Origin: Nonomuraea rubra
GTDB lineage: Bacteria > Actinomycetota > Actinomycetes > Streptosporangiales > Streptosporangiaceae
NCBI RefSeq assembly: GCF_014207985.1
Contig: NZ_JACHMI010000001.1
Span: 6,493,001-6,557,000 of the forward strand
Reading direction: 5' to 3'
DNA: 64,000 nucleotides
A program made the position numbers and the translations under genes. Shown piece by piece: positions 23,052-34,562 of this stretch; within the stretch, counting starts at the first letter, position 1, and each line of letters starts with the position of its first letter. Under the pieces are notes generated by a model, which saw only the letters and a program-made list of their open reading frames with translations, searched no databases and was not told where the DNA came from.

Positions 23052-24347
23052 ATGAGCCAGCCGTACAGCATCCAGGACGAGATCCGCCTCCCCGGCTTCA
23101 CCGGGACCGTGTACCTGCCGGGCGAGGCCGGCTACGACGAGGCCCGCCGCTCGCTGAACCCGGCCGTGGACTCCCGCCCGGCGCTGATCGCCGAGGCGCA
23201 GAGCGTCGCCGACGTCCGGGTCGCGCTGATGGCGGCCCGCGCCCACGGGGTCCCGTTCGCGGTCCAGGCCACCGGGCACGGCACGCACGCCCCGTGCGAC
23301 GGTGGCATCCTCGTCAAGACCACCTCGATGGCGTCGGTGCTGGTGGATCCCGAGCGCCGGATCGCCCGCGTCGGGCCGGGGGCGCGCTGGAGCGAGGTGA
23401 TCGCCGCCGCCGCGCCGTTCGGCCTGGCGCCGCTGTCGGGCTCGGCGCCGTCCGTCGGCGTCACCGGCTACACGCTCGGCGGCGGGCTCGGCTGGCTGGC
23501 CCGCAAGCACGGATTCGCGGCCGACAGCGTGCTGCGGGCCGAGGTGCTGCTGGCGGACGGCCGGCACGTGACCGCGAGCCCCGACAGCCACCCCGAGCTG
23601 TTCTGGGCGCTGCGCGGCGGCGGTGGCGGGTTCGGCGTGGTGACCTCGCTGGAGTTCCGGCTCTACCCGGTCCCGGAGGTGTTCGCCGGGTTCGTGTACT
23701 TCCCGATCGAGGCGGCGGCGCGGACGCTGGAGGCGTACCGGACCTGGATCGACGACGCCCCTGACGAGATCAGCACCGCGGTCGTGCTCAAGCGCATGCC
23801 CGATGACGAGCAGGTGCCCGCCGCGGTGCGCGGCAGGCACGTGGTGCTGCTGAAGGTCCTGCACGCCGGGACGGCCGAGGAGGCCGGGGAACTGCTCGCG
23901 CCGCTGTTCCGGGCGGCCGGGCCGGCGCTGCTGGACGAGACGCGGACCACCACGTACGGCGCCGCGGCCATGGGCGGCACGCCGAACCGGCACATGGACA
24001 TGTTCGACACCGTGCCCGGCGAGGTCGTGGACGCGCTGGTGCGCGCCTCGGAGCAGGCGCAGACGATCGAGATCAGGCACTGGGGCGGCGCGATCCGCCG
24101 GCCGGGCCCGGACGCGGGGCCGGTGAGCCACCGCGCCACCAGGCTCTCGGTGATCGTGGACACCGTGGTGCCGGGGCTGGCGGAGGAGCTGCGGCCGTAC
24201 GCGAACGGCGGGACGTTCCTGAACTTCCTGGCGGACCCGTCGCGGACGGCGGCGGCGTACACGGAGGCGGACTACGCGCGGCTGCGCGAGGTCAAGCGCG
24301 CCTACGACCCCGACGGCTTCTTCCGCGTCGGCCACGTCACCATCTGA
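23052..24347 (+). CDS. FAD-binding (BBE-like) oxidoreductase
   Basis: 431 residues of the PCMH/berberine-bridge-enzyme type. N-terminal FAD domain with VQATGHGTHAPC (the His region that anchors FAD, residues 75-86), then PSVGVTGYTLGGGLGWLARKHG and LFWALRGGGGGFGVVTSLEF; C-terminal BBE motif YDPDGFFRVGHVTI. The cysteine used for the second covalent bond in bicovalent members is not at its usual place before PSVGVTG, so attachment is probably through His only. Oxidises small alcohols, sugars or natural products; substrate unknown. Confidence 0.88.
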   Translation: MSQPYSIQDEIRLPGFTGTVYLPGEAGYDEARRSLNPAVDSRPALIAEAQSVADVRVALMAARAHGVPFAVQATGHGTHAPCDGGILVKTTSMASVLVDPERRIARVGPGARWSEVIAAAAPFGLAPLSGSAPSVGVTGYTLGGGLGWLARKHGFAADSVLRAEVLLADGRHVTASPDSHPELFWALRGGGGGFGVVTSLEFRLYPVPEVFAGFVYFPIEAAARTLEAYRTWIDDAPDEISTAVVLKRMPDDEQVPAAVRGRHVVLLKVLHAGTAEEAGELLAPLFRAAGPALLDETRTTTYGAAAMGGTPNRHMDMFDTVPGEVVDALVRASEQAQTIEIRHWGGAIRRPGPDAGPVSHRATRLSVIVDTVVPGLAEELRPYANGGTFLNFLADPSRTAAAYTEADYARLREVKRAYDPDGFFRVGHVTI

Positions 24348-24367
24348 TGTCCCGGCGGCCCGGGATG

Positions 24368-25456
24368 CTAACGGTAGAAGTTGGGCGACACGACGGCCGG
24401 GTCGTAGGAGTCGTGGAAGACCGGCGTGGTCGAGGCCGCCGTGGGCGGGATGATCCAGCTCCAGTCGGCGTGCACCTCCTCCCCCGCCCGGCGCCGCGCC
24501 TGCACGTACCGGTGGAAGTGGCCGGCGATCGTGTGGTGGTCGAGCATCCGCACCCCGGCCCGCTCGTACGAGGTGAGCACCGCGACGTTCAGCTCCGTCA
24601 GCGCCCGGTCCTTCCACAGCGTGCGGTCGTCGCCCGTGTCGAGCCCCAGCCGCCGCGCGATCTCCGGGAGCAGGTCGTAGCGGTCGCGGTCGGCGAAGTT
24701 CCTGGTGCCGACCTCGGTGCCGACGTACCAGCCGGTGAACGGGGCCGCGGGATAGGTGACGCCGCCGATCTCGAGCCGCATGTCCGACACCGTGGGGCAG
24801 GAGTACCAGCGCAGTCCCAGCTCGGCGAACCACGGGTGGACGGGGTGGGTGATGGGCACGTCCGGGCAGGCGTCGCGGGGCAGGTCGTGCCGGGTCAGGC
24901 GGCCGCGCGAGTCGCGGATCAGCACCGGCAGGCGGTCGAAGTCGCCGCCCTCGCCGCGCCAGCCCAGCTCGCGGGCCAGCCGGGTGAGCCCGGTGTTGGC
25001 GGGGTCGCCGCGGCGGGTGCCGTCCGGGTGCTCGTGGCCGGCGTAGCGGACGAGCTGGGGGCTGACGATCCGCGGGCCGGGGACGGCGGGCGTGTCGGGC
25101 GGGAACACGGTGATGATGGGCCGGATGGCGCCGCCGTTGTGCGCGCGTACCAGGTGGGTGGTGAGGGCGGCGGCGATCGTGTCCGGGTGGTGCAGCCTGC
25201 GGCAGTCGCGCACCACCAGCGTCTTCCAGTACAGCTTGCCGATGCACCGGGTGTGGTTGCGCCAGGCGAGTTTCGCACCGAGCACCAGCTCGGCGGGCGT
25301 GTGCCGGTAGGTGCCCGTCCGGGCCAGCTCGTCCAGGACGGCCGCGCGGCGGCGCTCGTGCCGCTCCCGGTCCCAGCCCAGCCCCTCGGCGCACAGGCGC
25401 AGGAACGACTCCGCCTCCTGGCTGACAGTGGCGGCCGGCGCGATGCTGACGCTCAT
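24368..25456 (-). CDS. nos: Nitric oxide synthase oxygenase
   Basis: 362 residues, the length of bacterial NOS oxygenase domains. The haem-thiolate Cys71 lies in WRNHTRCIGK, and the arginine-binding Glu248 in GWYVGTEVGTRN; the FADRDRYDLLPEIARRLGLD and SWIIPPTAASTTPVFH segments are also family-typical. It converts L-arginine to citrulline and NO using an outside reductase and a pterin. Last gene of the peptide-pathway operon; its ATG overlaps the MFS stop (ATGA). In thaxtomin clusters a NOS supplies NO for nitration of an aromatic ring, so a similar tailoring use is plausible here, but no TxtE-like P450 is in the window. Confidence 0.93.
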   Translation of the reverse strand: MSVSIAPAATVSQEAESFLRLCAEGLGWDRERHERRRAAVLDELARTGTYRHTPAELVLGAKLAWRNHTRCIGKLYWKTLVVRDCRRLHHPDTIAAALTTHLVRAHNGGAIRPIITVFPPDTPAVPGPRIVSPQLVRYAGHEHPDGTRRGDPANTGLTRLARELGWRGEGGDFDRLPVLIRDSRGRLTRHDLPRDACPDVPITHPVHPWFAELGLRWYSCPTVSDMRLEIGGVTYPAAPFTGWYVGTEVGTRNFADRDRYDLLPEIARRLGLDTGDDRTLWKDRALTELNVAVLTSYERAGVRMLDHHTIAGHFHRYVQARRRAGEEVHADWSWIIPPTAASTTPVFHDSYDPAVVSPNFYR

Positions 25457-26727
25457 GAATCCCCCGAGGTGGTGGCCGCGGGCGCGGCCTGGTGAATGTC
25501 CCGCAGTGGTGACAGGGCGGTGCCGACGGCGACCGCCGCCTGCACCAGGGCCGCGCACAGGAACAACATCCGCCCGGGCCCGCCCCAGGCGGCCAGGGCC
25601 CCGCCGACCACCGCCCCGCCGGCCAGCGCGCCGGCCGGGATGGTCGCGTACGCCGCCGCCCTGCTCACCGAGGTGACACGCCCGATGGCGTCGGCGGGCA
25701 CGACGGTCTGGCGGGCGGTGAACCAGGAGACCACGATGACCGACGTGGCCACCCCCTCCACGGCCCAGGCGGCCGCGATCACCCAGACGGCGGGCAGCGC
25801 CACGGGCAGGGCCATGGCCAGCGCGGACAGCGCCATCCCGGCGACGAGCAGCCTGCCCGTCGGGTGGCGGTCGATGAGCCGGGGCGCCGCCAGCGCGCCG
25901 AGCACCGCGCCGAGCCCCTGCGCCCCGAACACCACGCCCAAGGCCACGGCGGGCAGGCGTTCGACCTCCAGGATGAGGTAGACGAGGTTGCCTTCGACGA
26001 CGAACCCGGCGAAGTTCGCGGCGGCCATCAGCAGCGTGCCCCACCAGATCGGCCTGATCGAGCGGAGGATGCGCAGGCCCCGCACGAAGTCCCTGGCCAC
26101 GCCGGACAGCTCGGCGCGCACGCCGCCCGCGGGCGCCACCTGCTTGTGCACGTGGGCGATCTGGAAGATGAGCAGCGCCGAGATCGCGAACGTCAGCGCG
26201 TTGACCAGCGTCGCCAGCGGCACGCCGAGGGCCGCGATGAACGCGGTGCCGACGACGGGCCCGACGAAGGCGAGCGAGCTGTCGACGGTCTGCGTCCAGG
26301 CGTTGATCCTGGACAGCCGCTCCTGCGGCACGGTGTCGACGATGAAACCCTGGAAGGCGGGGAAGTAGAAGGGCCGCACGGCGGCCAGCAGGAAGGCGCA
26401 CAGGTAGAGCAGCGCCACCGAGGGCCGGTCGGCCGCGGCCACGAACACGATCACCAGCGCGATCGCGAAGGACAGGCAGTCGCATGCGATGAGGATCCTG
26501 CGGCGGTCCCACCGGTCGGCTATCACGCCCGCGACCAGCCCGACCACGATGTACGGGATGAACTCCAGCACGTACGCCAGCGCCGCCGACAGCGCGGAGC
26601 CGGTGATCTGCAGGATCAGCGTGGGAGCGGCGAACCGGTAGATCCAGTCGCCCACCGTCGAGACGAGGAACGCGCTCCGCAGCCGGACGCCTCCCGGGCC
26701 GGAGGGCGTACGCGACGCTACCCGCAT
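25453..26727 (-). CDS. MFS transporter (exporter-like)
   Basis: 424 residues, about 12 membrane helices, with the MFS loop motif ADRWDRRRILIACD after helix 2. Pattern fits the enterobactin-exporter/MFS_3 group. It lies between the MccB-like and NOS genes and overlaps the NOS start, so it likely exports the pathway product or protects the producer. ATG 26727 has no ribosome site of its own; it sits inside a 12-codon frame (26718-26756) that does, suggesting coupled initiation. Confidence 0.87.
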   Translation of the reverse strand: MRVASRTPSGPGGVRLRSAFLVSTVGDWIYRFAAPTLILQITGSALSAALAYVLEFIPYIVVGLVAGVIADRWDRRRILIACDCLSFAIALVIVFVAAADRPSVALLYLCAFLLAAVRPFYFPAFQGFIVDTVPQERLSRINAWTQTVDSSLAFVGPVVGTAFIAALGVPLATLVNALTFAISALLIFQIAHVHKQVAPAGGVRAELSGVARDFVRGLRILRSIRPIWWGTLLMAAANFAGFVVEGNLVYLILEVERLPAVALGVVFGAQGLGAVLGALAAPRLIDRHPTGRLLVAGMALSALAMALPVALPAVWVIAAAWAVEGVATSVIVVSWFTARQTVVPADAIGRVTSVSRAAAYATIPAGALAGGAVVGGALAAWGGPGRMLFLCAALVQAAVAVGTALSPLRDIHQAAPAATTSGDS

Positions 26728-26756
26728 CGGCCCGGGTCAGGAACGCTGTGTGCCAT
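26718..26756 (-). CDS. 12-residue leader peptide or second mini-peptide before the MFS gene
   Basis: ATG 26756, with GGGAGG eight bases upstream, opens MAHSVPDPGRCG and stops at 26718, nine codons' worth into the overlap with the MFS start. Either a translational-coupling leader for the MFS gene, or a second tiny peptide of the pathway (it has one Cys and ends in Gly). A single-base sequencing error that would fuse it to the MFS frame is the third possibility. Confidence 0.35.
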   Translation of the reverse strand: MAHSVPDPGRCG

Positions 26757-26828
26757 GGCAGGGTCCTCCCAACGGACAGACAGGGGTTCCACAGGGACGG
26801 TAACCGCGCGGGCCCGTCCCGGCGAGAG

Positions 26829-26855
26829 GGTGGGGCGCCGCGGGAACGCCCCACC
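26829..26855 (-). terminator. Stem-loop between MccB-like and MFS genes
   Basis: GGTGGGGCG (26829-26837) pairs with CGCCCCACC (26847-26855) around a nine-base loop; likely a partial terminator or mRNA-stabilising hairpin inside the operon. Confidence 0.5.
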
Positions 26856-26868
26856 TGGTGGCGGAGCC

Positions 26869-26923
26869 GGAGTGGTGCAGTCGGAGTGGTGCAGTCGGAG
26901 TGGTGCAGTCAGAGTGGTAGAGG
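26869..26923. repeat. 14-bp tandem repeat at the 3' end of the MccB-like gene
   Basis: GGAGTGGTGCAGTC occurs three times exactly from 26869 with a degenerate fourth copy from 26911. The stop codon of the MccB-like gene (26909-26911) lies at the last junction, so the array has grown into, or set, the end of that gene. Confidence 0.75.
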
Positions 26924-28066
26924 CCCGAGGTCGCCGGCGAGCCACTCCAGGCTCGGCTTCGGCCGGGCGTCGCCGCACGTCGCGCAGCGCGGGTCGCGCT
27001 TCCACGTCTCGGCCTCGCGCAGGCGGGGGTCGTGGAAGGTCATCTCCAGCATCCGGCCCACCGACAGCGGCGGGCAGACCCGGCTGGCGATGCGCACCAT
27101 CTCGGCGACCAGGAACCCCGCGCCGAACAGCACCAGGCCGTTGAACGCGGCGGTGTCCTCGCCGAACGTCCCGCCCTCCCTGTCGATCTCGTCCAGCACG
27201 TCCATGACGGCCAGCGAGGTGGGGTCGTTGCTGCGGACCTGGTCGTACCAGCACTCGACACAGCCGGACACCCCGGGCACGATCGTGTAGTGCAGGGCGC
27301 GCTGGGTGTCCACGCCGCCCATGATGAGTGCCGTGCCGGCCCGTACGCAGCCCTCGTTCAGCCAATGGGCGATGTGCACCTTGGGGCGGTCCACCACGGA
27401 GATCACGATGTCGCGGTCGCGGACGACCTCGTACACGTCGTCGCCGGACATCAGCTTGCGCTGCACCGGGTCGATCCGCACGGCGCTGTTGAGCGCGCGC
27501 GCCCGCTCGGCGGCCACCTCGACCTTCACCCGGCCCACGTACGGCTCGCCGTAGAGGATCTGCCGGTTGAAGTTCGACAGCTCGATCCGGTCGAAGTCGA
27601 CGATCCTGATGTCCTCGAAACCGATGGCGACCAGGTCGATCAGCGCATGGCTGCCGATGCCGCCGACACCGAGCACGGCGACGCGGGCGTCGCGGATGCG
27701 GCGCTGGAACTCGTACTTGGAGGCGCTCATGGAGGCGTAGGTCTCGAAGAAGCCGAGGTTGTTCGACCAGCGCTCGCGGGCCGGGCGGTCGAAGTCCGCG
27801 CCGGCGTCGTCCGCGCTCTGGATCAGCCGGAGCGCGTCGAGCTCGCCGATCGCGTCGCGGACGTCGTCCGCCGTCACGTCGGGGTGCACGGCGTGCAGGT
27901 CGCGGTGCACCTCCTCCACGGTGCGCGTGCCGTCCAGCAGGGACAGCAGCCTGCTGACCCGGCCGTCGGCATCCTCCAGCGAGGTCAGCTCGCCGCCCAG
28001 CCTGAAGTGCACCGACCCGTCGGCGATGAAATAGGGGATGCTCGTCTTGAGCACGGGATGTGTCAT
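26909..28066 (-). CDS. MccB-like ThiF/E1 adenylating enzyme with N-terminal peptide-clamp (RRE-like) domain
   Basis: 385 residues. Residues 1-85 look like a PqqD/RRE-type winged helix (VHFRLGGELTSLED...VEEVHRDL), the peptide clamp of MccB. Residues 95-385 are an E1 domain: GVGGIG ATP loop at 133-138, VDFDRIELSNFNRQILY, SVVDRP, and a four-Cys zinc site (269, 272, 361, 364). Order and motifs track MccB of the microcin C7 pathway closely (RWSNNLGFFETY, GVSGCVEC, PRCATCGD). MccB adenylates the C-terminal carboxylate of a tiny peptide. ATG 28066 has GGAAGGA upstream and lies just after the 18-residue peptide gene and a hairpin. Confidence 0.88.
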   Translation of the reverse strand: MTHPVLKTSIPYFIADGSVHFRLGGELTSLEDADGRVSRLLSLLDGTRTVEEVHRDLHAVHPDVTADDVRDAIGELDALRLIQSADDAGADFDRPARERWSNNLGFFETYASMSASKYEFQRRIRDARVAVLGVGGIGSHALIDLVAIGFEDIRIVDFDRIELSNFNRQILYGEPYVGRVKVEVAAERARALNSAVRIDPVQRKLMSGDDVYEVVRDRDIVISVVDRPKVHIAHWLNEGCVRAGTALIMGGVDTQRALHYTIVPGVSGCVECWYDQVRSNDPTSLAVMDVLDEIDREGGTFGEDTAAFNGLVLFGAGFLVAEMVRIASRVCPPLSVGRMLEMTFHDPRLREAETWKRDPRCATCGDARPKPSLEWLAGDLGPLPL

Positions 28067-28084
28067 GGCAATCCTTCCAAGGGG

Positions 28085-28112
28085 GGTGGGGCGCCCCTGA
28101 GGGCGCCCCACC
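28085..28112 (-). terminator. 12-bp perfect hairpin between peptide and MccB-like genes
   Basis: GGTGGGGCGCCC (28085-28096) pairs exactly with GGGCGCCCCACC (28101-28112) around a four-base loop, 10 bases after the peptide stop. Without a T-tract it is likely an attenuator or an RNA-protecting stem that lets the short upstream peptide be made in excess of the enzyme, a common layout for peptide-precursor genes. Confidence 0.65.
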
Positions 28113-28122
28113 TTCAACGGAA

Positions 28123-28179
28123 TCAGCCCTTCTGGGCACCACCGGCGACGCTGTACCGCTTGGTCGACTTCTTGATCAT
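28123..28179 (-). CDS. 18-residue peptide, candidate precursor of the MccB-like pathway
   Basis: MIKKSTKRYSVAGGAQKG. The ATG at 28179 has GAGGAGGTG eight bases before it, the strongest ribosome site in the operon, and overlaps the stop of the peptidase gene by four bases (ATGA). An in-frame stop lies three codons upstream, so the frame is no longer than this. Position directly before an MccB-like enzyme is that of mccA (a heptapeptide) and paaP. Unlike MccA it ends in Gly, not Asn; a C-terminal Gly is what ThiS/MoaD-type E1 partners present. Basic first half (KK, KR), one Tyr, small hydrophobic/Gly second half. No homologue is known to me; product structure is inference. Confidence 0.75.
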   Translation of the reverse strand: MIKKSTKRYSVAGGAQKG

Positions 28180-30332
28180 GGAAGTTCACCTCCTCTCGGT
28201 TCCGTCGGGGTGATGCTCGCGAGGCCCAGCTCGTGGGCGAAGAACGCGAGCACGTCTGCGAAGTAGGACAACCGGCCGGTGCGTCCCCGCTCGCCGTGCC
28301 CCGCGCCCGCCTCGTGGCGCAGCAGCACCGGGCGGGACGAGCCGGAGGCGAACTGCAGCGCGGCGGCCATCTTCCGCGCGTGCAGCGGGTCGACGCGGGT
28401 GTCCTCGCCGAACGCCGACAGCAGGACGGCCGGGTACGGGATGCCGGGCACCACCCGGTGGTAGGGCGAGTAGCCGAGCAGCCAGCCGAGCTCCTCCGGG
28501 TCCTCCCGGCTGCCGAACTCCTCCCGCCAGTGCTCGCCGAGCCCGGTCAGCTCGTAGCGGGCCATGTCGAGGAGCGGCGCCGTGCAGGCGACGGCGGCGA
28601 ACAGCTCGGGGCGCTGCGTCATCGCGGCGCCCGCGAGCAGGCCGCCCGCGCTGGCGCCGAACGCGCCCAGGCGGTCGTGGGTGGTGTGCCCGGTCTCGAC
28701 CAGGTGGCCGGCCGCGGCGATGAAGTCGTCGATGCCGCGCTGCTTGTGCTCGCGGCGTCCCGCGTGGTGCCACGCCTCGCCGCCCTCGCCGCCGCCGCGC
28801 ACGCAGGCGACCGCGAACAGGCCGCCCCGCCCTGCCCAGGCCAGGGCCGCCGCGTAGTAGTCGGCGATGCGCGGCTCCCCGAAGGCGCCGTAGCCCTCCA
28901 GGATCGTGGGCAGCGGTCCCGCCCGGTGCCAGGACGGGGCGAGCAGGAGGATCCGTACGGGGGTGCCGTCCGGGGAGACGCAGACCGTCTCGGACGCCCG
29001 CACCGGCGGCGTGACCGGGGCCGGGTGGCGGCGCCACGGCGTGCTGGAGCCGGTGCCGGCCTCGTAGCGGTAGACGGTCTCCGGGGTGACGCGGTCGGAG
29101 TACTCGTACCAGGCCTCGCCGCCGGGCACGCCGGGGACCAGGTCGGTGACGAGGCCGGGGCCGGGCAGCTCGACCTGGCCCAGGAGGCGGCCGGTGGCCG
29201 GGTCGTGGCGGGTCACGGCGCCGTGGCCGGCGACCGTCCAGTGGGCCAGCAGCAGGCCGTCGAGCACCGCGAACCCGTCCAGCACCGCTTCCGGGTCCTC
29301 GGGGATCAGCGTGCGCGGGCCGGCCGCGGCCTCCGACGGGTCGTCGTGCGGCGGCAGGTCGTGTGGCAGGTCGTTTTGTGACTGCAGGTCGTTTTGTGGC
29401 AGGTCGGTGACGAGGAGGCGGCCGCGGGGGGCGCCGGCGTCGGTCAGCAGGTACAGGCGGCCGCCGGGGGCCGGCCAGGCGGAGGTCCAGCCGTCCTCGG
29501 GCAGCGGCAGCCGGCGCAGGGCGGGCCGCTCGATCGAGCCGTCGCGCAGGTCGGCCACCCACACCTCGTTGGTCGCCGACAGCCCGGAGGCCACCTGGAC
29601 GACCAGCAGCCGCCCGTCCGCCCCCACCAGCGCGTCCAGCTCGGCCGTACGGTCGGAGCCCGCGCCGGACACCACCGCGTCGGCTGCGGCGGGCTCCCCC
29701 ACCCGGTGCAGGCAGACCCGCGGGCCGGAGCGCTCGTCGTGCCGCGTGTAGTAGAACGCGTCCCGCCCAGGCAGCCAGGCGACCGACGAGTAGCGGCAGC
29801 CGGCGATGGGCTCGTCCACGTCCCCCCCGGTCTCCACGTCGAGCACGCGCAGCGTGAACCGTTCGGATCCGCCCACGGCCGTCTGGTAGGCCATCAAGCG
29901 GCCGTCGGTGGAGGCGGACCAGTAGCCCAGCACCGTGCGCCGCTCCGGATCGGCGGCGTCCGGCTCGAACAGGGCGCGGTCGCCGTGCGAGTCGCGGACC
30001 ATGAGCGCGTGGTGCTCCGCCCCGGGCCGCAGGCAGGTGTAGAAGGCCCGCCCGGCGCGGAACTGCGGCACCGACAGCCGCTCGAACGAGGTCAGGTGCC
30101 GCAGCTCGCGGAACCATCCGCCGACCGGCCAGCCGTCCCGCGCCCTGGCGAACAGGCGGGCCTGCGCCGCCAGCCAGTCGCGGGTCTCCGGCGAGTCCGG
30201 GTCCTCCAGCCATCGGTACGGGTCGGCCACCTCGCGCCCGCCGAGCAGTTCCCGTACGTCGTCCCGCCGTGCCACCGGTGCCGGCGCGAGGTGCGTGTCC
30301 ATGACTCCCGGAGAACTCGTGACCTCGGACAC
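28176..30332 (-). CDS. Prolyl oligopeptidase family (S9A) serine peptidase
   Basis: 718 residues. N-terminal seven-bladed propeller (from YRWLEDPDSPETRDWLAAQ to about residue 440), then a hydrolase domain with catalytic Ser561 in GASAGG, Asp648 in TRVDPLH and His679 in GAGHGERG; S9A enzymes usually show GGSNGG at the Ser. Such enzymes cut or macrocyclise short peptides, and some RiPP pathways use them as leader proteases or cyclases; a role in maturation or self-protection is inferred. GTG 30332 has GGGAG seven bases upstream; ATG 30302 is an alternative. First gene of the operon, coupled to the peptide gene. One Asp/His-rich inserted loop is seen near residue 325. Confidence 0.88.
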   Translation of the reverse strand: MSEVTSSPGVMDTHLAPAPVARRDDVRELLGGREVADPYRWLEDPDSPETRDWLAAQARLFARARDGWPVGGWFRELRHLTSFERLSVPQFRAGRAFYTCLRPGAEHHALMVRDSHGDRALFEPDAADPERRTVLGYWSASTDGRLMAYQTAVGGSERFTLRVLDVETGGDVDEPIAGCRYSSVAWLPGRDAFYYTRHDERSGPRVCLHRVGEPAAADAVVSGAGSDRTAELDALVGADGRLLVVQVASGLSATNEVWVADLRDGSIERPALRRLPLPEDGWTSAWPAPGGRLYLLTDAGAPRGRLLVTDLPQNDLQSQNDLPHDLPPHDDPSEAAAGPRTLIPEDPEAVLDGFAVLDGLLLAHWTVAGHGAVTRHDPATGRLLGQVELPGPGLVTDLVPGVPGGEAWYEYSDRVTPETVYRYEAGTGSSTPWRRHPAPVTPPVRASETVCVSPDGTPVRILLLAPSWHRAGPLPTILEGYGAFGEPRIADYYAAALAWAGRGGLFAVACVRGGGEGGEAWHHAGRREHKQRGIDDFIAAAGHLVETGHTTHDRLGAFGASAGGLLAGAAMTQRPELFAAVACTAPLLDMARYELTGLGEHWREEFGSREDPEELGWLLGYSPYHRVVPGIPYPAVLLSAFGEDTRVDPLHARKMAAALQFASGSSRPVLLRHEAGAGHGERGRTGRLSYFADVLAFFAHELGLASITPTEPRGGELP

Positions 30333-30400
30333 TGTCCGGCTCCCTCCGTCGTCGTGCTGGCTGGGTCCGTTCCGCTGCCACCGAAGCTTCGTCCCGGGGT

Positions 30401-30640
30401 CTGGACGGGGCGCTGGACCCGCCGCTGGACCCGCCGCTGGACCCGCCGCTGGACCCGCCGCTGGACCCGCCGCTGGACCCGCCGCTGGACAGGGCACTGG
30501 CCGTCGCCCTGGAGAGCGTTGTGGACCTGGCGCTGGACGGTGCCCTGGGCGCATCGTTGGACGGGGCACTGGCGGAACCGCTGGACGGTAACCGGGGAAC
30601 CGCTGGACGGGGTACTGGTGGGACCCCTGGAACGGATCCC
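30401..30640. repeat. 12-bp tandem array and degenerate CTGGAC repeats in the regulator/operon spacer
   Basis: CGCTGGACCCGC repeats with an exact 12-base period from about 30411 to 30490 (six to seven units), followed by decayed copies carrying CTGGAC to about 30640. It fills much of the 468-base divergent spacer (30333-30800) between the peptidase operon and the SARP gene. It may be a spacer, a multi-site operator, or slippage product. Frames read through it give only AAGP repeats, not a protein. Confidence 0.75.
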
Positions 30641-30800
30641 GCACACGGATATTTCCGGATTTGTCATGAACTCGGACCTGTGCGCGTCATCCCCACCCGG
30701 CCGGACGACGAATGAGGGGGCGTCCCCGGCGGATCAAGACCGGGGCGGTCCGGCCACACCTCGCGGACAGCAACACTCGTGTTACTTCTGAGGAGGCGGG

Positions 30801-33368
30801 ATGTCCGAAGGGCATGGAGAGGATGTCCGATTCGAGGTACTGGGGCCGCTGCGCGCGTGGCGTGCGCGGACCGGCCTGGCCCTGGGTTCCGGCCGGCGGC
30901 GGACCCTGCTGGCGGTCCTGCTGCTGCACGCCAACCGCCCGGTGAGCCGCGACAGGCTCATCGACGAGCTGTGGGGCGGGAACGTGCCCGCGTACGCCGT
31001 GAACCTGCTGCAGAAGCACATGTCCAGCCTGCGGGCGGGCCTGGAGCCGGGGCGGCGCGGGCGCGGGCCTTCCGGCGCGCTGGCCTGGACGGAGGCCGGG
31101 TACGTGCTGCGCGTGCCCCCGGGAGGGCTGGACCTGGAGGTGTTCGAGCAGGAGGTCAGGCGCGCCAGGGAGGCGCACGCCGCCGGTGACCTGACGGGCG
31201 CCTCCGGGGCGTACCACGCGGCGCTGCGGCTGTGGCGGGGGCCGGTCTGCGACGGCCTGTGCAGCCCGTTCCTCGACATGATGCGGGATCAGGTCGCCGA
31301 GCGGCGGATCGGCGCGATCGAGGAGTGCATGGAGGTGGACCTGGCGCTGGGCGGGCAGGCCGACCTCGTCGCCGAGCTGCGCTGGCTGGTGGCGCACCAT
31401 CCGCTGCGCGAGCGGCTGCACGGCCTCCTCATGCTGGCCCTGTACCGGTCCGGTCGCCAGGCGGAGGCGCTGGCCGCCTTCCGGGACGCCCGGCGGCGGC
31501 TGCGCGAGGAGCTGGGCGTCGAGCCGACGGCCCTGCTGCAGACCCTCCACCAGCGCATCCTCGCCGCCGACCCCGACCTCATCCCCCTCCCCTCCCACCG
31601 CCCTCCGCCGGCCTCTCTCCCCACCGTCCCGCCCCCAGCACCGAACGCCACTCCCCCGCACGACCCGCCACCGCACCCCGCGCCGCAGAACGCCGCGCCA
31701 CCGCACGGCTCGCCACCGCACGACTCGCCACCGCACGACTCGCCACCGCACGACAAGGCCCCGCATGACATGACCCCGTCCCGCGCCAGCACGCGCGGCT
31801 CGACGACAGACGGCTCAGCGCGAGGCCGCACCGCGGGGACCGGCACGGCGGCCTCGCATGGCTCGGGCACGCGGGGCCGGGCGGGCGGTCCGGCCTCGTC
31901 CGGACAGGGGCGGCGGGCGGCGGCGCGCACCCCGCGCCACTGGCCGACGCCCGCGCAACTCCCCCACGGGGTGCCCCAGTTCGTCGGCCGGAAGGCGGAG
32001 CTGGAGCGGCTCGACGCGCTACTGACCGGCGACCCGGGCCGGAGCCGGGCCGTGGTCCTCACCGGCATGGCGGGCGTGGGCAAGACGGCCCTGGCGATCC
32101 ACTGGGCGCACCGGATCCGGCACCGGTTCCCCGACGGCCAGCTCTACGTGAACCTGCGAGGCTTCGACCCCACGGGGACCCCGATGGAGCCGACGGAGGC
32201 GATCCAGGGTTTCCTGGACACGTTCGCGATCAAACCGGACCAGCTCCCCAGCGGCCTGCACGCCCGCGCCGCGCTCTTCCGCAGCCTGCTCGCGGGCCGC
32301 CGGATGCTGATCGTGCTCGACAACGCCAGGGACGCCGAGCAGGTCCGCCCCTTGCTGCCCGGCGCGCCCGGCTGTCTCGTCGTGGTGACCAGCCGGGATC
32401 AGCTCACCGGCCTGGTGGCGGCCGAGGGCGCGCACGCGTTCGTGGTGGACCTGCTCCCGAAGGAGGAGGCGCGCCTGCTGCTCACCCGCCGCTCGGGTTC
32501 CCGCCTGCCCGGAACGTTCCAGAGCGGCCTGCTCCAGCCCGCCGCCCGGTGCCCGGCCGCGACACTGGACGACCCCGCGAACGGGGACGAGCACCGATTA
32601 GCCGGCGAGGCCGCGGCCGTGGACGAGATCGTCGCGTACTGCGGCCGCCTGCCGCTCGCCCTGTCCATCACCATCGCCCGCGCCGTCACCAACCCGAGCC
32701 TGCCGTTCGCCGCCCTGGCCGCGGAGCTGCGCGGCGCGCGGGCGCGCCTGGACCCGTTCGACGGCGGCGAGCAGGCCACGAACGTGCGGGCGGCGTTCTC
32801 CTGGTCCTACGGCCGGCTCACCCCGCCGGCCGCCCGCCTGTTCCGGCTGCTGGGGCTGCACCCGGGCCCGGACTTCAGCCCGGCCGCCGCCGCCAGCCTG
32901 GCCGGGCTGCCCCTGCAGGACGTCCGGCCGCTGGTGGCCGAGCTGGCCAGGACGAACATGCTGAGCGAGCGCGTCCCCGGCCGGTTCGCCTTCCACGGCC
33001 TGCTCCGCGCGTACGCGTGCGAGCTGAGCGACACGCAGGACACCCGCGACGAGCGAAGGACGACCCTGCACCGCCTGCTCGACCACTACCTGCACAGCGC
33101 CCACCAGGCCGGCCGCGTCCTGAGGCCGGGCCAGAGCCCGGACGCCGGCCTCGCCCCCGCCCTGCCGCTGGTGACACCGGAGGCGCCGGCCGGCAGGAGC
33201 GAGGCCAGGACGTGGTTCACCGCCGAGCACCTGGTGCTGCTCGCGGCGGCCCGGCGGGCGGCGGAGGCCGGCTTCCCCGCGCATGCCAGGCACCTGTCCT
33301 GGTCCCTGGCCTCCTTCCTCGGCCACCGCGGGACCTGGCGCGTGAAGGTCGCCCCCACCTCCCGCTGA
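30801..33368 (+). CDS. SARP/AfsR-like regulator (BTAD plus NB-ARC)
   Basis: 855 residues. OmpR-like DNA-binding domain (residues 8-100: GRRRTLLAVLLLHANRPVSRDRLIDELWG), bacterial transcriptional activator domain (100-255), a low-complexity Pro/His linker with SPPHD repeats (270-320), then an NB-ARC ATPase with Walker A GMAGVGKTALA near residue 418 and VVVTSRDQ. It ends soon after the ARC helices, so the TPR sensor region of AfsR is absent or truncated. AGGAGG is four bases from the ATG. SARP proteins activate nearby natural-product operons; the divergent peptide operon is the obvious target. Confidence 0.88.
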   Translation: MSEGHGEDVRFEVLGPLRAWRARTGLALGSGRRRTLLAVLLLHANRPVSRDRLIDELWGGNVPAYAVNLLQKHMSSLRAGLEPGRRGRGPSGALAWTEAGYVLRVPPGGLDLEVFEQEVRRAREAHAAGDLTGASGAYHAALRLWRGPVCDGLCSPFLDMMRDQVAERRIGAIEECMEVDLALGGQADLVAELRWLVAHHPLRERLHGLLMLALYRSGRQAEALAAFRDARRRLREELGVEPTALLQTLHQRILAADPDLIPLPSHRPPPASLPTVPPPAPNATPPHDPPPHPAPQNAAPPHGSPPHDSPPHDSPPHDKAPHDMTPSRASTRGSTTDGSARGRTAGTGTAASHGSGTRGRAGGPASSGQGRRAAARTPRHWPTPAQLPHGVPQFVGRKAELERLDALLTGDPGRSRAVVLTGMAGVGKTALAIHWAHRIRHRFPDGQLYVNLRGFDPTGTPMEPTEAIQGFLDTFAIKPDQLPSGLHARAALFRSLLAGRRMLIVLDNARDAEQVRPLLPGAPGCLVVVTSRDQLTGLVAAEGAHAFVVDLLPKEEARLLLTRRSGSRLPGTFQSGLLQPAARCPAATLDDPANGDEHRLAGEAAAVDEIVAYCGRLPLALSITIARAVTNPSLPFAALAAELRGARARLDPFDGGEQATNVRAAFSWSYGRLTPPAARLFRLLGLHPGPDFSPAAAASLAGLPLQDVRPLVAELARTNMLSERVPGRFAFHGLLRAYACELSDTQDTRDERRTTLHRLLDHYLHSAHQAGRVLRPGQSPDAGLAPALPLVTPEAPAGRSEARTWFTAEHLVLLAAARRAAEAGFPAHARHLSWSLASFLGHRGTWRVKVAPTSR

Positions 33369-33383
33369 GCCCGCGGCCGGTCC

Positions 33384-34562
33384 TCAGCTCACGACGCCGC
33401 TGAGCTCGTTCGGCGGCTGCGGCAGGGAGGTGCTCCTGGTGACCTCGCCGGAGGCGAAGTCCACCGCGTGCAGCCGCTTGCCCTCCGGGTCGCTGACGTA
33501 GACGACCTGGTCACGGACGAAGAGGTTCGGCCTGGGGCGCTGCCACTCCAGGGGCTCCTTCCACTCGCCGAGCACCTTGATGGTCCTGACGACCTTGCCC
33601 GCCGCCGGGTCGATGACGTGGACGGCGCCGTCGGTGCCGAGGACGAGGGCCTCGCCTCCCGGGCCGCGCGCCAGTGACCGGAAGGTGTAGCTCGTGCCGA
33701 GGTCCACCAGTTTCAGCGTGCCGGTCGTGGTGTCGATGAGGGAGACCTGGGTGGGCCGTTCCAGCTCGGCGTCCGGGTCCTTCTTGTAGTCGCCGAGGAC
33801 GATCGGGGACAGGTCGGAGCCGGACTGGTTGCCGATCCTGCCGTACTCGTCGGGGCTGTCGATCTTGCTGATCCTGCCGTCCTTGTACAGCAGGACGCCG
33901 TCCTCGCAGCCGAGCACGACGGCCTCGTCCTGGGCGGTGGCCTCGCCGTGCACGCCGGGGCAGTCCTCGCTGCGGGTGATCTCCTTGCGCTGCGCGTCCA
34001 GGACGGCGATGCCGGTGCGCTTCTCCTCGGTGCCGAGGGTGACGACCAGCTCGCCGTTCTCCAGCGCGATCGCGACGCCGTGGTGGGCGGTCGCGGACTT
34101 GTACACCTCGCCCTTGGGCAGGCCGGCGGACAGCTCTGCCGGGTCGAACAGGGTGACCTCGCCGGTGCCGTCGGCGAACAGGACGGTCGTGCCGGCGTGC
34201 CGTACCACGTGTCCCGGCTTGGCGCCCTTGAACTCGTCGTCCTTCAGCGTCGCCGAGGCGGCGTCGAGCACCCGGAAGCCGGTCGAGGTGGAGACGAGCA
34301 CGTGCCTGGCGTCCCCGGCGGGGTTGACGCGGTTGTATCCGGCGAGGGGGATGTCCTTGACCAGCTCCAGGCTCCGACCGTCGAGGACGTACAGGCCGCC
34401 GTCGTACGTCAGCACGACGGGGTCGGTCACGGCCGGCCCGGCGGCCGAGGCCGGCGGCTGGGTGGCGGCGGCGGCCTTCGTCGCGGGTTCCTGCGCGGTC
34501 CCGCAGGCGGTGAGCAGGAGGGCTCCGGCGAGCAGCGCCGCCGGGGCGGCGGTCCGGGTCAT
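33384..34562 (-). CDS. AztD-like zinc metallochaperone lipoprotein
   Basis: 392 residues. Lipobox LLLTACG near residue 20, a short Ala/Pro linker, then a beta-propeller-like fold (repeated strands such as YDGGLYVLDGRSLELVKDIPL and ATLKDDEFKGAKPGHVVRHAGTTVLFADGTGEV) that matches AztD, the chaperone that hands zinc to AztC. Metal-binding His residues appear in TAHHGVAI and PGVHGEA. Last gene of the Zur-box operon, 30 bases after the binding protein; outside-of-membrane location. Confidence 0.82.
   Translation of the reverse strand: MTRTAAPAALLAGALLLTACGTAQEPATKAAAATQPPASAAGPAVTDPVVLTYDGGLYVLDGRSLELVKDIPLAGYNRVNPAGDARHVLVSTSTGFRVLDAASATLKDDEFKGAKPGHVVRHAGTTVLFADGTGEVTLFDPAELSAGLPKGEVYKSATAHHGVAIALENGELVVTLGTEEKRTGIAVLDAQRKEITRSEDCPGVHGEATAQDEAVVLGCEDGVLLYKDGRISKIDSPDEYGRIGNQSGSDLSPIVLGDYKKDPDAELERPTQVSLIDTTTGTLKLVDLGTSYTFRSLARGPGGEALVLGTDGAVHVIDPAAGKVVRTIKVLGEWKEPLEWQRPRPNLFVRDQVVYVSDPEGKRLHAVDFASGEVTRSTSLPQPPNELSGVVS

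Follow-up and report, generated by a model that had tools for sequence, protein, structure and literature searches.

Among the enzymes that mature ribosomally synthesized and post-translationally modified peptides (RiPPs), the ThiF-like adenylyltransferases (TLATs) differ in the way the activated carboxylate is captured: MccB forms an Asn-derived N-P bond, PaaA uses a pair of Glu residues, GrcB joins Glu and Cys, and EnfB produces a backbone imide (PMC12250964), while the linkage made by IndF is Trp-Ile (PMC12150305). Genome mining guided by nitric oxide synthase (NOS) names the thaxtomin, rufomycin, azaguanine, lajollamycin and pyrazolofluostatin clusters (PMC10831120), and in rufomycin biosynthesis the cytochrome P450 RufO nitrates the Tyr of the ribosomal peptide MRYLH with nitric oxide (NO) from RufN (PMC12186263). 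Here, we describe an operon of Nonomuraea rubra in which an MccB-like E1 enzyme and a NOS stand together with an S9 peptidase, an 18-codon gene and an MFS exporter. It lies in a stretch of 64,000 nucleotides (in the following, the window) of the 12.9 Mb host genome (G000). We are confident that a real and conserved RiPP module of the E1 type is present in the operon, its precursor family being one for which no description was found. Within the open-licence literature no published description of the module was found (which does not prove that it is unpublished), nor any match for the string STKRYS of its precursor, nor any work combining a prolyl oligopeptidase with ThiF.

The operon and its conserved core

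An initial annotation, made from the sequence alone, had proposed five same-strand genes in the order S9 peptidase, 18-residue open reading frame (ORF), MccB-like E1, MFS and NOS. Order and coordinates were confirmed, and the four larger genes have Pfam matches (NO_synthase 445 bits, ThiF 150 bits, MFS_1 124 bits, and both Peptidase_S9_N and Peptidase_S9 for the peptidase). The features are as follows:

24368..25456, minus strand: NOS oxygenase gene, second NOS copy of the genome (Pfam, 1m7v alignment, tree)
25453..26727, minus strand: MFS exporter gene (Pfam; kept in 10/10 loci)
26909..28066, minus strand: gene of the MccB-like E1 (RiPP ThiF-like adenylyltransferase) with predicted N-terminal peptide clamp or RiPP recognition element (RRE) (Pfam, PDB search, model)
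28085..28112, minus strand: hairpin of 12 bp, 10 bases past the precursor stop, candidate terminator/attenuator
28123..28179, minus strand: precursor gene of 18 codons, MIKKSTKRYSVAGGAQKG (12 copies in 10 loci)
28189..28193, minus strand: GGAGG ribosome-binding site of the precursor gene (GGAGG in 12/12 copies)
28176..30302, minus strand: S9 (prolyl-oligopeptidase family) peptidase gene, its stop overlapping the precursor ATG (Pfam, PDB search)

The peptidase gene starts with ATG at 30302; an in-frame upstream GTG near 30332 gives the end reported in the initial annotation. The four-base overlaps noticed there were likewise confirmed: ATGA is shared by the S9 stop and the precursor start and again by the MFS stop and the NOS start, and the three further Nonomuraea loci show both of them as well, the MFS/NOS overlap thus being present in 4/4.

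Ten loci were compared, namely the window with three further loci of the Nonomuraea group (L031, Nonomuraea sp. PA05; L032, [Actinomadura] parvosata subsp. kistnae; L035), one of Planosporangium thailandense (L033) and five of the genus g180 (L080-L084). This genus was taken as Kitasatospora-like because its E1s share a tree with those of Kitasatospora sp. NPDC056327 (P0007) and Streptomyces sp. NRRL S-495 (P0008). The order S9-peptide-E1-MFS is found in all ten loci and thus in three genera, which supports the earlier proposal of a short peptide that is modified by the E1 and served by a peptidase and an exporter of its own, since the module is conserved as a unit. The initial annotation had also suggested searching around E1 homologues for a conserved S9 peptidase, a NOS and a short frame with a strong ribosome site. 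Peptidase and short frame accompany the E1 in 10/10 loci, with GGAGG before 12/12 copies, but a NOS gene follows the MFS gene in 4/10 only, all of them from Nonomuraea.

The slot behind the exporter is filled differently in the other genera. In Planosporangium it holds a P450 gene (Pfam, 102 bits) that starts roughly 95-120 bases past the MFS gene, which means that the linkage is positional only; in 5/5 g180 loci it holds a DUF6058 gene (Pfam in the two tested, the others by tblastn with 62-64% identity to that of L084). Further downstream of the Planosporangium operon (L033 12224-15850) an MNIO-type enzyme (Pfam MbnB_TglH_ChrH), a 278-aa protein without Pfam match and a B12-binding radical SAM protein are encoded, possibly another RiPP cluster.

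Orthologues of the E1 with 93-100% identity occur in four of 148 genomes (G000, G015, G049, G004), corresponding to 4/54 of the genus. A contig scan with the E1 gave the three loci L031, L032 and L033, the enzyme of P. thailandense being 75% identical, and the N. gerenzanensis locus L115 (NZ_LT559118.1) is 99.9% identical to the locus of G049, so both were counted once. A class-wide E1 search of 394 genomes gave a strong match in G000 only (658 bits) and four others of 211-243 bits, and an equally large search (394 genomes) in the family of G109 gave six matches with E <= 1e-90, five from g180 and one from the distant G730; four candidates per genome were scored in both, so that misses are possible. 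No match was obtained in the families of G331 (35 genomes, NOS and E1) and G131 (22 genomes, E1). In a protein search, considering the best 120 of 177 matches, at least 106 (the window's E1 included) have at least 42% identity at 63-100% query coverage, and many of those listed come from metagenome sources.

The G730 locus (L085) contains in a row an M3 peptidase, a short ORF, an E1 (43%) and an MFS protein (36%). The short ORF before the E1 was read as MIHMSVAMTTRKASIAGQANEG with an uncertain start and stands outside the 12-copy count. An M3 enzyme takes the place of S9, which means that a peptidase is retained though of another family, and this type may represent a second subclass with another peptidase family.

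The precursor peptide

The precursor family comprises 12 copies in the 10 loci of Nonomuraea, Planosporangium and the Kitasatospora-like genus. A second copy is located between E1 and MFS in L032 and L035, and none in the window and L031. Residues 1-10 (MIKKSTKRYS) are identical in 12/12 copies, A12 and K17 are invariant, positions 11 and 13-16 vary, and residue 18 is Gly in ten copies and Ala in two; the first copy of N. gerenzanensis, for instance, has T15 where the window's peptide has A15. Codons 1-10 show only synonymous differences, at codons 5, 6 and 8. The copies were tabulated by a DNA pattern on these first ten codons, which means that residues 1-10 are in part invariant by construction; an unconstrained tblastn recovered the same copies (11 and the window's own). 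Weak tblastn matches of nine residues that directly follow the first copy in L031, L035 and L036 were dropped as chance, and the exact DNA pattern of the precursor start was present in one of 394 genomes, the window's own. Asn, Glu, Cys, Trp, Pro and the (V/I)RK motif occur in none of the 12 copies. GGAGG lies upstream of the ATG in all of them, nine bases away in the window.

Since the same peptide is found by sequence and position in 10/10 orthologous loci, the ORF is more than a chance frame and, judged by this conservation, is a genuine gene. It is followed in 12/12 copies by a hairpin of 12-18 pairs that starts 7-12 bases past the stop. Depending on the copy its stem was reached by 0-16 of 300 dinucleotide shuffles (9/300 for the window's); the stem sequences differ among genera, and RNAfold z-scores over 75-90 bases range from -0.9 to -4.8, which is weak for some hairpins. 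In Escherichia coli mccA RNA is in excess owing to a hairpin terminator that separates mccA from mccB (PMC6495379), and by analogy the hairpin described here would give excess precursor RNA. A small ORF followed by a GC-rich hairpin could also be a translated regulatory leader (attenuator) for E1-MFS-NOS and no substrate at all. We consider this extremely unlikely, because the residues are kept while some codons change, are retained in three genera while the flanks diverge and recur in second copies downstream of E1, and because the adjoining E1 is from a peptide-modifying family with an N-terminal clamp.

The MccB-like E1 enzyme

A PDB sequence search with the E1 placed MccB first (94 bits, query 98-366) and PaaA next (68 bits, query 4-200, clamp included). 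The AlphaFold model has a predicted local distance difference test value (pLDDT) of 92.7, and Foldseek returned MccB chains on ranks 1-24 (about 365-379 columns, template modelling score 0.70-0.75 by query) and PaaA on ranks 25-26. Invariant in 57/57 aligned rows are G133, G135, G136, G138, D157, D159, N165, N167, R168, Q169, K181 and D226 as well as four Cys (269, 272, 361, 364). By position and motif R168, K181 and D226 would correspond to Arg167, Lys180 and Asp225, the ATP/Mg residues of EnfB (PMC12250964). Of the features of RiPP TLATs (RRE-ThiF), the ThiF domain, the ATP/Mg residues, the N-terminal clamp (by sequence and model) and, as precursor, a conserved short gene beside the E1 gene (10/10 loci, 12 copies) are found. 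On the strength of these features and of its predicted structure the E1 is assigned to the RiPP ThiF-like adenylyltransferases with a predicted MccB/PaaA fold, and it would modify the peptide in an ATP-dependent reaction.

The composition of the precursors restricts what this enzyme can make. With no Asn, Glu, Cys or Trp the side-chain linkages of MccB, PaaA, GrcB and IndF cannot form, and a backbone imide of the EnfB type would be compatible with the sequences. ThiF and MoeB activate the Gly-Gly ends of ubiquitin-like carriers, and the C-terminal Gly of the precursor is reminiscent of these. We regard it as rather probable that the C-terminal carboxylate is activated and then captured within the same molecule. 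Of the products considered in the initial annotation, both one of the pantocin type and an adenylated one like microcin C are unlikely, the former because Glu and the latter because a C-terminal Asn is absent from every copy. The latter would mean that the E1 yields a peptide-nucleotide (a Trojan horse as in microcin C) and no ring. Among solved structures MccB is indeed nearest in both sequence and fold, and the hairpin after the precursor gene is placed like the one between mccA and mccB (PMC6495379), but MccB requires a C-terminal Asn for the succinimide and the N-P bond (PMC12250964), with which 0/12 copies end, and this alternative appears very unlikely.

Paralogous MccB-like E1 loci, mostly of the same genus (L008-L011, L013, L017, L021, L026-L028, L030), have short ORFs like MKIEVRKVEAVKATQFVT and MRIVIRRPEKIEATAWWIVA. 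Many of these paralogue ORFs carry (V/I)R(K/R), reminiscent of the enterofaecin leader (V/I)RKA. The count of 11 distinct loci among 32 scanned (some overlapping) comes from a loose pattern chosen after the ORFs had been seen, with no chance control. NCBIfam holds no model for five paralogue peptides.

The S9 peptidase

The best PDB relatives of the peptidase are prolyl endopeptidases (2bkl, 364 bits), and peptide cyclase 1 (200 bits) and OphP are also among them. The Ser (GxSAGG), Asp and His motifs are kept in 10/10 loci. In the S1 region the sequence is WREEFG for the Nonomuraea and Planosporangium enzymes and WTDEFG or WTEEFG for those of g180 (five loci), a Trp followed by an acidic pair thus being common to all ten. 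We take this to be a mixture of prolyl-oligopeptidase and oligopeptidase-B traits, by which the cut site is not decided. As the precursors have no Pro, a cut after K7-R8 or after A12 is a guess.

The peptidase might instead be a head-to-tail cyclase like plant peptide cyclase 1 (PCY1), or an intracellular destroyer of the mature peptide that serves self-protection. Such roles would agree with peptide cyclase 1 and OphP as structural relatives, with a peptidase gene that precedes the precursor gene (and overlaps it in Nonomuraea) and with the degrading peptidases that microcin C clusters often have (PMC12250964). Yet peptide cyclase 1 scores below 2bkl, no precursor contains Pro, and a conserved front half followed by a variable back half resembles leader and core. 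We therefore hold both roles to be rather unlikely and prefer that of a leader-trimming enzyme.

The nitric oxide synthase

The NOS of the operon is matched by PF02898 over positions 4-355 of 362 and was aligned to the NOS of Bacillus subtilis (1m7v) over residues 13-361. It thus has the full-length domain of the NOS oxygenase family with recognisable active-site motifs, in which we assume the heme Cys and the substrate Glu to have their usual roles, the latter in arginine binding. A NOS match is present in 52/54 genomes of the genus, mostly outside the operon, and the four genomes with the operon have two each. Two NOSs are also found in six operon-free genomes (G006, G033, G035, G039, G041, G045); one copy from each of these shares 49-51% identity with the operon NOS, and no other operon gene was found within 7-18 kb around those copies.

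With the other NOS of the host genome the operon NOS shares 52% identity, and with Kibdelosporangium proteins and FlsN1 of Micromonospora rosaria it shares 62-66%. A tree of 52 rows, built by a quick method and rooted at midpoint, places the operon NOSs together with the FlsN1 and Kibdelosporangium types (SH-aLRT 99) and separates them from the genus-wide NOS group (100); their nearest neighbour is one metagenome protein. Identity and clade lead us to reject the idea that the operon NOS is a relocated copy of the genus NOS.

A third NOS type in the same tree groups G035, G041 and G045. Among 16 NOS proteins inspected for one motif, PTVSDM was read in the window's and in three of its clade and PAISDM or PAISNM in four of Streptomyces or Nonomuraea, eight not matching the pattern. 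Val in place of Ile near the NOS heme speeds NO release.

The insert and its flanks

The following features surround or complete the operon:

30801..33368, plus strand: SARP/AfsR-type regulator gene, same insert (Pfam, flank comparison)
24339..33383, no strand: inserted cassette, whole (blastn against operon-free L103, L106)
23052-24347: FAD oxidase gene, left flank
33384-34562: lipoprotein gene, right flank

Homology of the operon-free loci L103 (G024) and L106 (G028) to the window ends at 24337-24338 by blastn and resumes at 33384 in G024 and 33396 in G028. This gap in two operon-free genomes indicates that SARP, S9, peptide, E1, MFS and NOS genes form one insert of about 9.0 kb. In G028 the lipoprotein and FAD oxidase genes adjoin with about 164 bases between the matches, and in G024 a different stretch of about 2 kb occupies the same site (L103, between 6937 and 9006), whose longest frames resemble by eye a TetR-type regulator and an FAD monooxygenase. 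These are two of the six operon-free genomes examined; in the other four the two flanks do not occur together in the stretch.

All four operon loci have the FAD oxidase gene on the left, and three have the lipoprotein gene on the right; in L035 the 3.8 kb that follow the SARP gene did not show it. The FAD oxidase matches at E <= 1e-100 in 43/54 genus genomes and with at least 73% identity in 28; in the six operon-free genomes it adjoins the binding protein gene in four and the lipoprotein gene in two. The FAD oxidase (23052), the siderophore-type binding protein (21729) and the lipoprotein (33384) were therefore rejected as pathway genes, since they co-occur without the operon. The SARP regulator stands beside the operon in 4/4 Nonomuraea loci and has no match in the stretches around the six others. 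Neither its place in the insert nor the hairpin past the precursor gene had been noticed in the initial annotation. In G011 a paralogous E1 (32%) and a SARP-like regulator (38-39%) lie about 1.5-5 kb from the same FAD oxidase gene (L105 4573-7929); E1-type clusters may thus be drawn to this site.

The spacer that separates the divergently oriented SARP and S9 genes contains arrays of 12- and 24-bp repeats (30411-30631, CGCTGGACCCGC in the window), of which N. gerenzanensis has a differing version (L115 4594-4724). They are possible regulator sites. The MFS protein of N. gerenzanensis has a C-terminal extension that reaches the NOS start and is in part encoded by a 15-bp repeat (L115 9721-9804). 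An apparent absence of the MFS/NOS overlap in this species was rejected, because the MFS alignment ends early and the frame continues through the repeat to a four-base overlap. The entry NZ_LT559118.1 (11.85 Mb, evidently the chromosome) is filed in PLSDB as a plasmid and has 10 annotated features in total.

A proposed pathway and a possible role of nitric oxide

As best explanation of the whole we propose, with even chances of being right, a RiPP cassette with ring closure by the E1, trimming by the S9 peptidase, export by the MFS protein and tailoring by NO. The 18-residue precursor would be held by the predicted clamp of the MccB-like E1, which likely activates the C-terminal glycine as AMP ester. 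A nucleophile of the peptide itself may then close the ring, the candidates allowed by the sequence being Ser10, Tyr9 or a Lys. Trimming of the front half (leader) is the likely task of the S9 peptidase, and the MFS protein, if its presumed direction of transport is correct, would export the product. In Nonomuraea this product could in addition be nitrated or nitrosated by NO from the added NOS, with the invariant Tyr9 as the most likely site, each of these roles of NO being putative. A more specific version remains doubtful: the E1 would activate the C-terminal Gly as ThiF and MoeB do and form a lactone or lactam via Ser10, Tyr9 or Lys, NO from the private NOS would act on Tyr9 by direct nitrosation without a P450, and the slot behind the exporter would be a docking place for lineage-specific tailoring genes (NOS, P450, DUF6058).

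Several observations weigh against the proposed pathway. The S9/precursor overlap is a Nonomuraea trait, the genes being separated by 47 bases in Planosporangium and by 91-97 in the five g180 loci, and the precursor lacks Pro though the best relatives of the peptidase are prolyl endopeptidases. NOS is missing in 6/10 loci of the module, which means that NO is unnecessary for the core chemistry. Five of these six loci lie in genomes with NOS elsewhere, so that a distant gene could supply NO: the five g180 genomes carry NOS outside the locus, one of them in two copies, and the Planosporangium genome has no NOS match anywhere (nor has that of G730). A heme-motif scan, for which L033 was the positive control, found no P450 in the window, and a Pfam search of the genome for P450 gave 89 match rows, none in the window and the nearest more than 150 kb away. 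A nearby nitrating P450 was accordingly rejected. Of the g180 stretches, L081 has one occurrence of the P450 heme motif, L082 and L083 have two each, and L080 and L084 have none.

A user of NO is thus not recognisable in the insert, which would leave direct nitrosation, a distant P450 or no incorporation. The RiPP module might be real and NO not enter the peptide at all, the NOS being a co-regulated signal, a redox or defence factor or an antimicrobial partner. The core module without NOS in six loci, an insert with neither a P450 nor another enzyme that evidently uses NO, and the genus-wide occurrence of NOS, mostly outside the operon and hence indicative of other uses of NO, all agree with this. 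On the other hand, the NOS gene is part of the insert, shares four bases with the MFS gene in 4/4 Nonomuraea loci and encodes a protein of the clade of FlsN1, a NOS of a biosynthetic cluster, and for signalling the genus-wide NOS already there would serve. We consider a separate role of NO unlikely, though less so than a cyclizing or protective peptidase, and give the incorporation of NO into the product slightly less than even chances. Of the nitrated or nitrosated product suggested in the initial annotation, the distinct second NOS and its overlap with the MFS gene stand in favour; its absence from six loci and the window without P450 do not fit.

The same annotation knew of no described pathway that joins MccB-like enzymes and NOS. 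Put so broadly this has to be qualified, as rufomycin already pairs NOS with a ribosomal pentapeptide (PMC12186263), but NOS together with a ThiF/MccB-like (E1-type) RiPP enzyme was not found described in the open-licence literature. ThiF has zero occurrences in the rufomycin paper PMC12186263, and the words ThiF, RiPP and ribosomal are absent from the main text of the NOS-mining paper PMC10831120.

The module is a very small, conserved four-gene RiPP system, and the composition of its precursors excludes most linkages reported for ThiF-like RiPP enzymes in the papers considered, leaving an imide like that of EnfB. This means that one in vitro reaction could reveal a new linkage. The dedicated NOS in Nonomuraea makes it testable whether NO tailors a ribosomal peptide without a neighbouring P450, and a small ring-closed, possibly nitrated peptide would, if true, widen the known chemistry of gene-encoded peptides.

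Comparison with known systems

With MccB/MccA of microcin C7 the operon shares the fold with peptide clamp (by model), the ATP-site residues and a tiny precursor, and microcin C clusters have an exporter gene, to which the MFS gene is a counterpart. In contrast, its precursor has 18 residues and ends with Gly or Ala, compared with seven residues and a final Asn in MccA, and it has an extra S9 peptidase, in Nonomuraea a NOS, and no nucleotide-tailoring genes in the insert. The hairpin between precursor and E1 genes is again common to both (PMC6495379). Assignment to the microcin C type needs a C-terminal Asn (PMC12250964), but the copies end with Gly (10) or Ala (2), and it was rejected.

Pantocin A (PaaP/PaaA) also has a ThiF-like enzyme with clamp, which is second-best by sequence (N-terminal part included) and by fold. 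PaaA, however, works on two Glu of PaaP (PMC12250964), and the operon precursors have none; Glu is absent from all 12 copies and no Pfam match for a 2-oxoglutarate-Fe(II) oxygenase like PaaB was found in the five larger proteins of the insert, so that assignment to the pantocin type was rejected.

The Ind, GrcB and EnfB systems have ATP-driven carboxylate activation followed by intramolecular capture in common with the proposed reaction (PMC12150305, PMC12250964), and the ind cluster (IndA/IndF/IndP) comprises the same four functions, i.e., precursor, ThiF-like enzyme, peptidase and transporter, but with an M16 peptidase instead of S9 (PMC12150305). The features described for these systems, Trp-Ile, Glu-Cys and a (V/I)RKA leader with WWIVI core, are all absent from the operon precursors. 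The GRC type (Glu-Cys thiolactone, two radical SAM enzymes) does not apply, with no Glu or Cys in 12 copies and no radical SAM Pfam match in the five larger proteins of the insert, nor does the enterofaecin or Ind type ((V/I)RKA with WWIVI, or a C-terminal Trp-Ile ring), with no Trp and no (V/I)RK in 12 copies.

Among NOS-containing systems the nearest cluster-named NOS in the matches listed is FlsN1 of the pyrazolofluostatin cluster, 62% identical and of the same clade as the operon NOS; that cluster makes a polyketide, and the role of FlsN1 in it is only indicated (PMC10831120). Rufomycin resembles the operon in having a NOS gene in the cluster (RufN) and a tiny ribosomal peptide, MRYLH, with an Arg-Tyr pair (PMC12186263). 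It differs in that the P450 RufO nitrates and the nitrated Tyr feeds a nonribosomal peptide synthetase (PMC12186263), whereas the window is without P450; the operon is thus not of the rufomycin type, which has a nitrating P450 and a Tyr-centred pentapeptide ending with His, its own precursor having 18 residues and ending with KG. NOS in combination with a ribosomal peptide is therefore already known (PMC12186263), and what the open-licence literature did not show is the pairing of a NOS with an E1-type RiPP enzyme.

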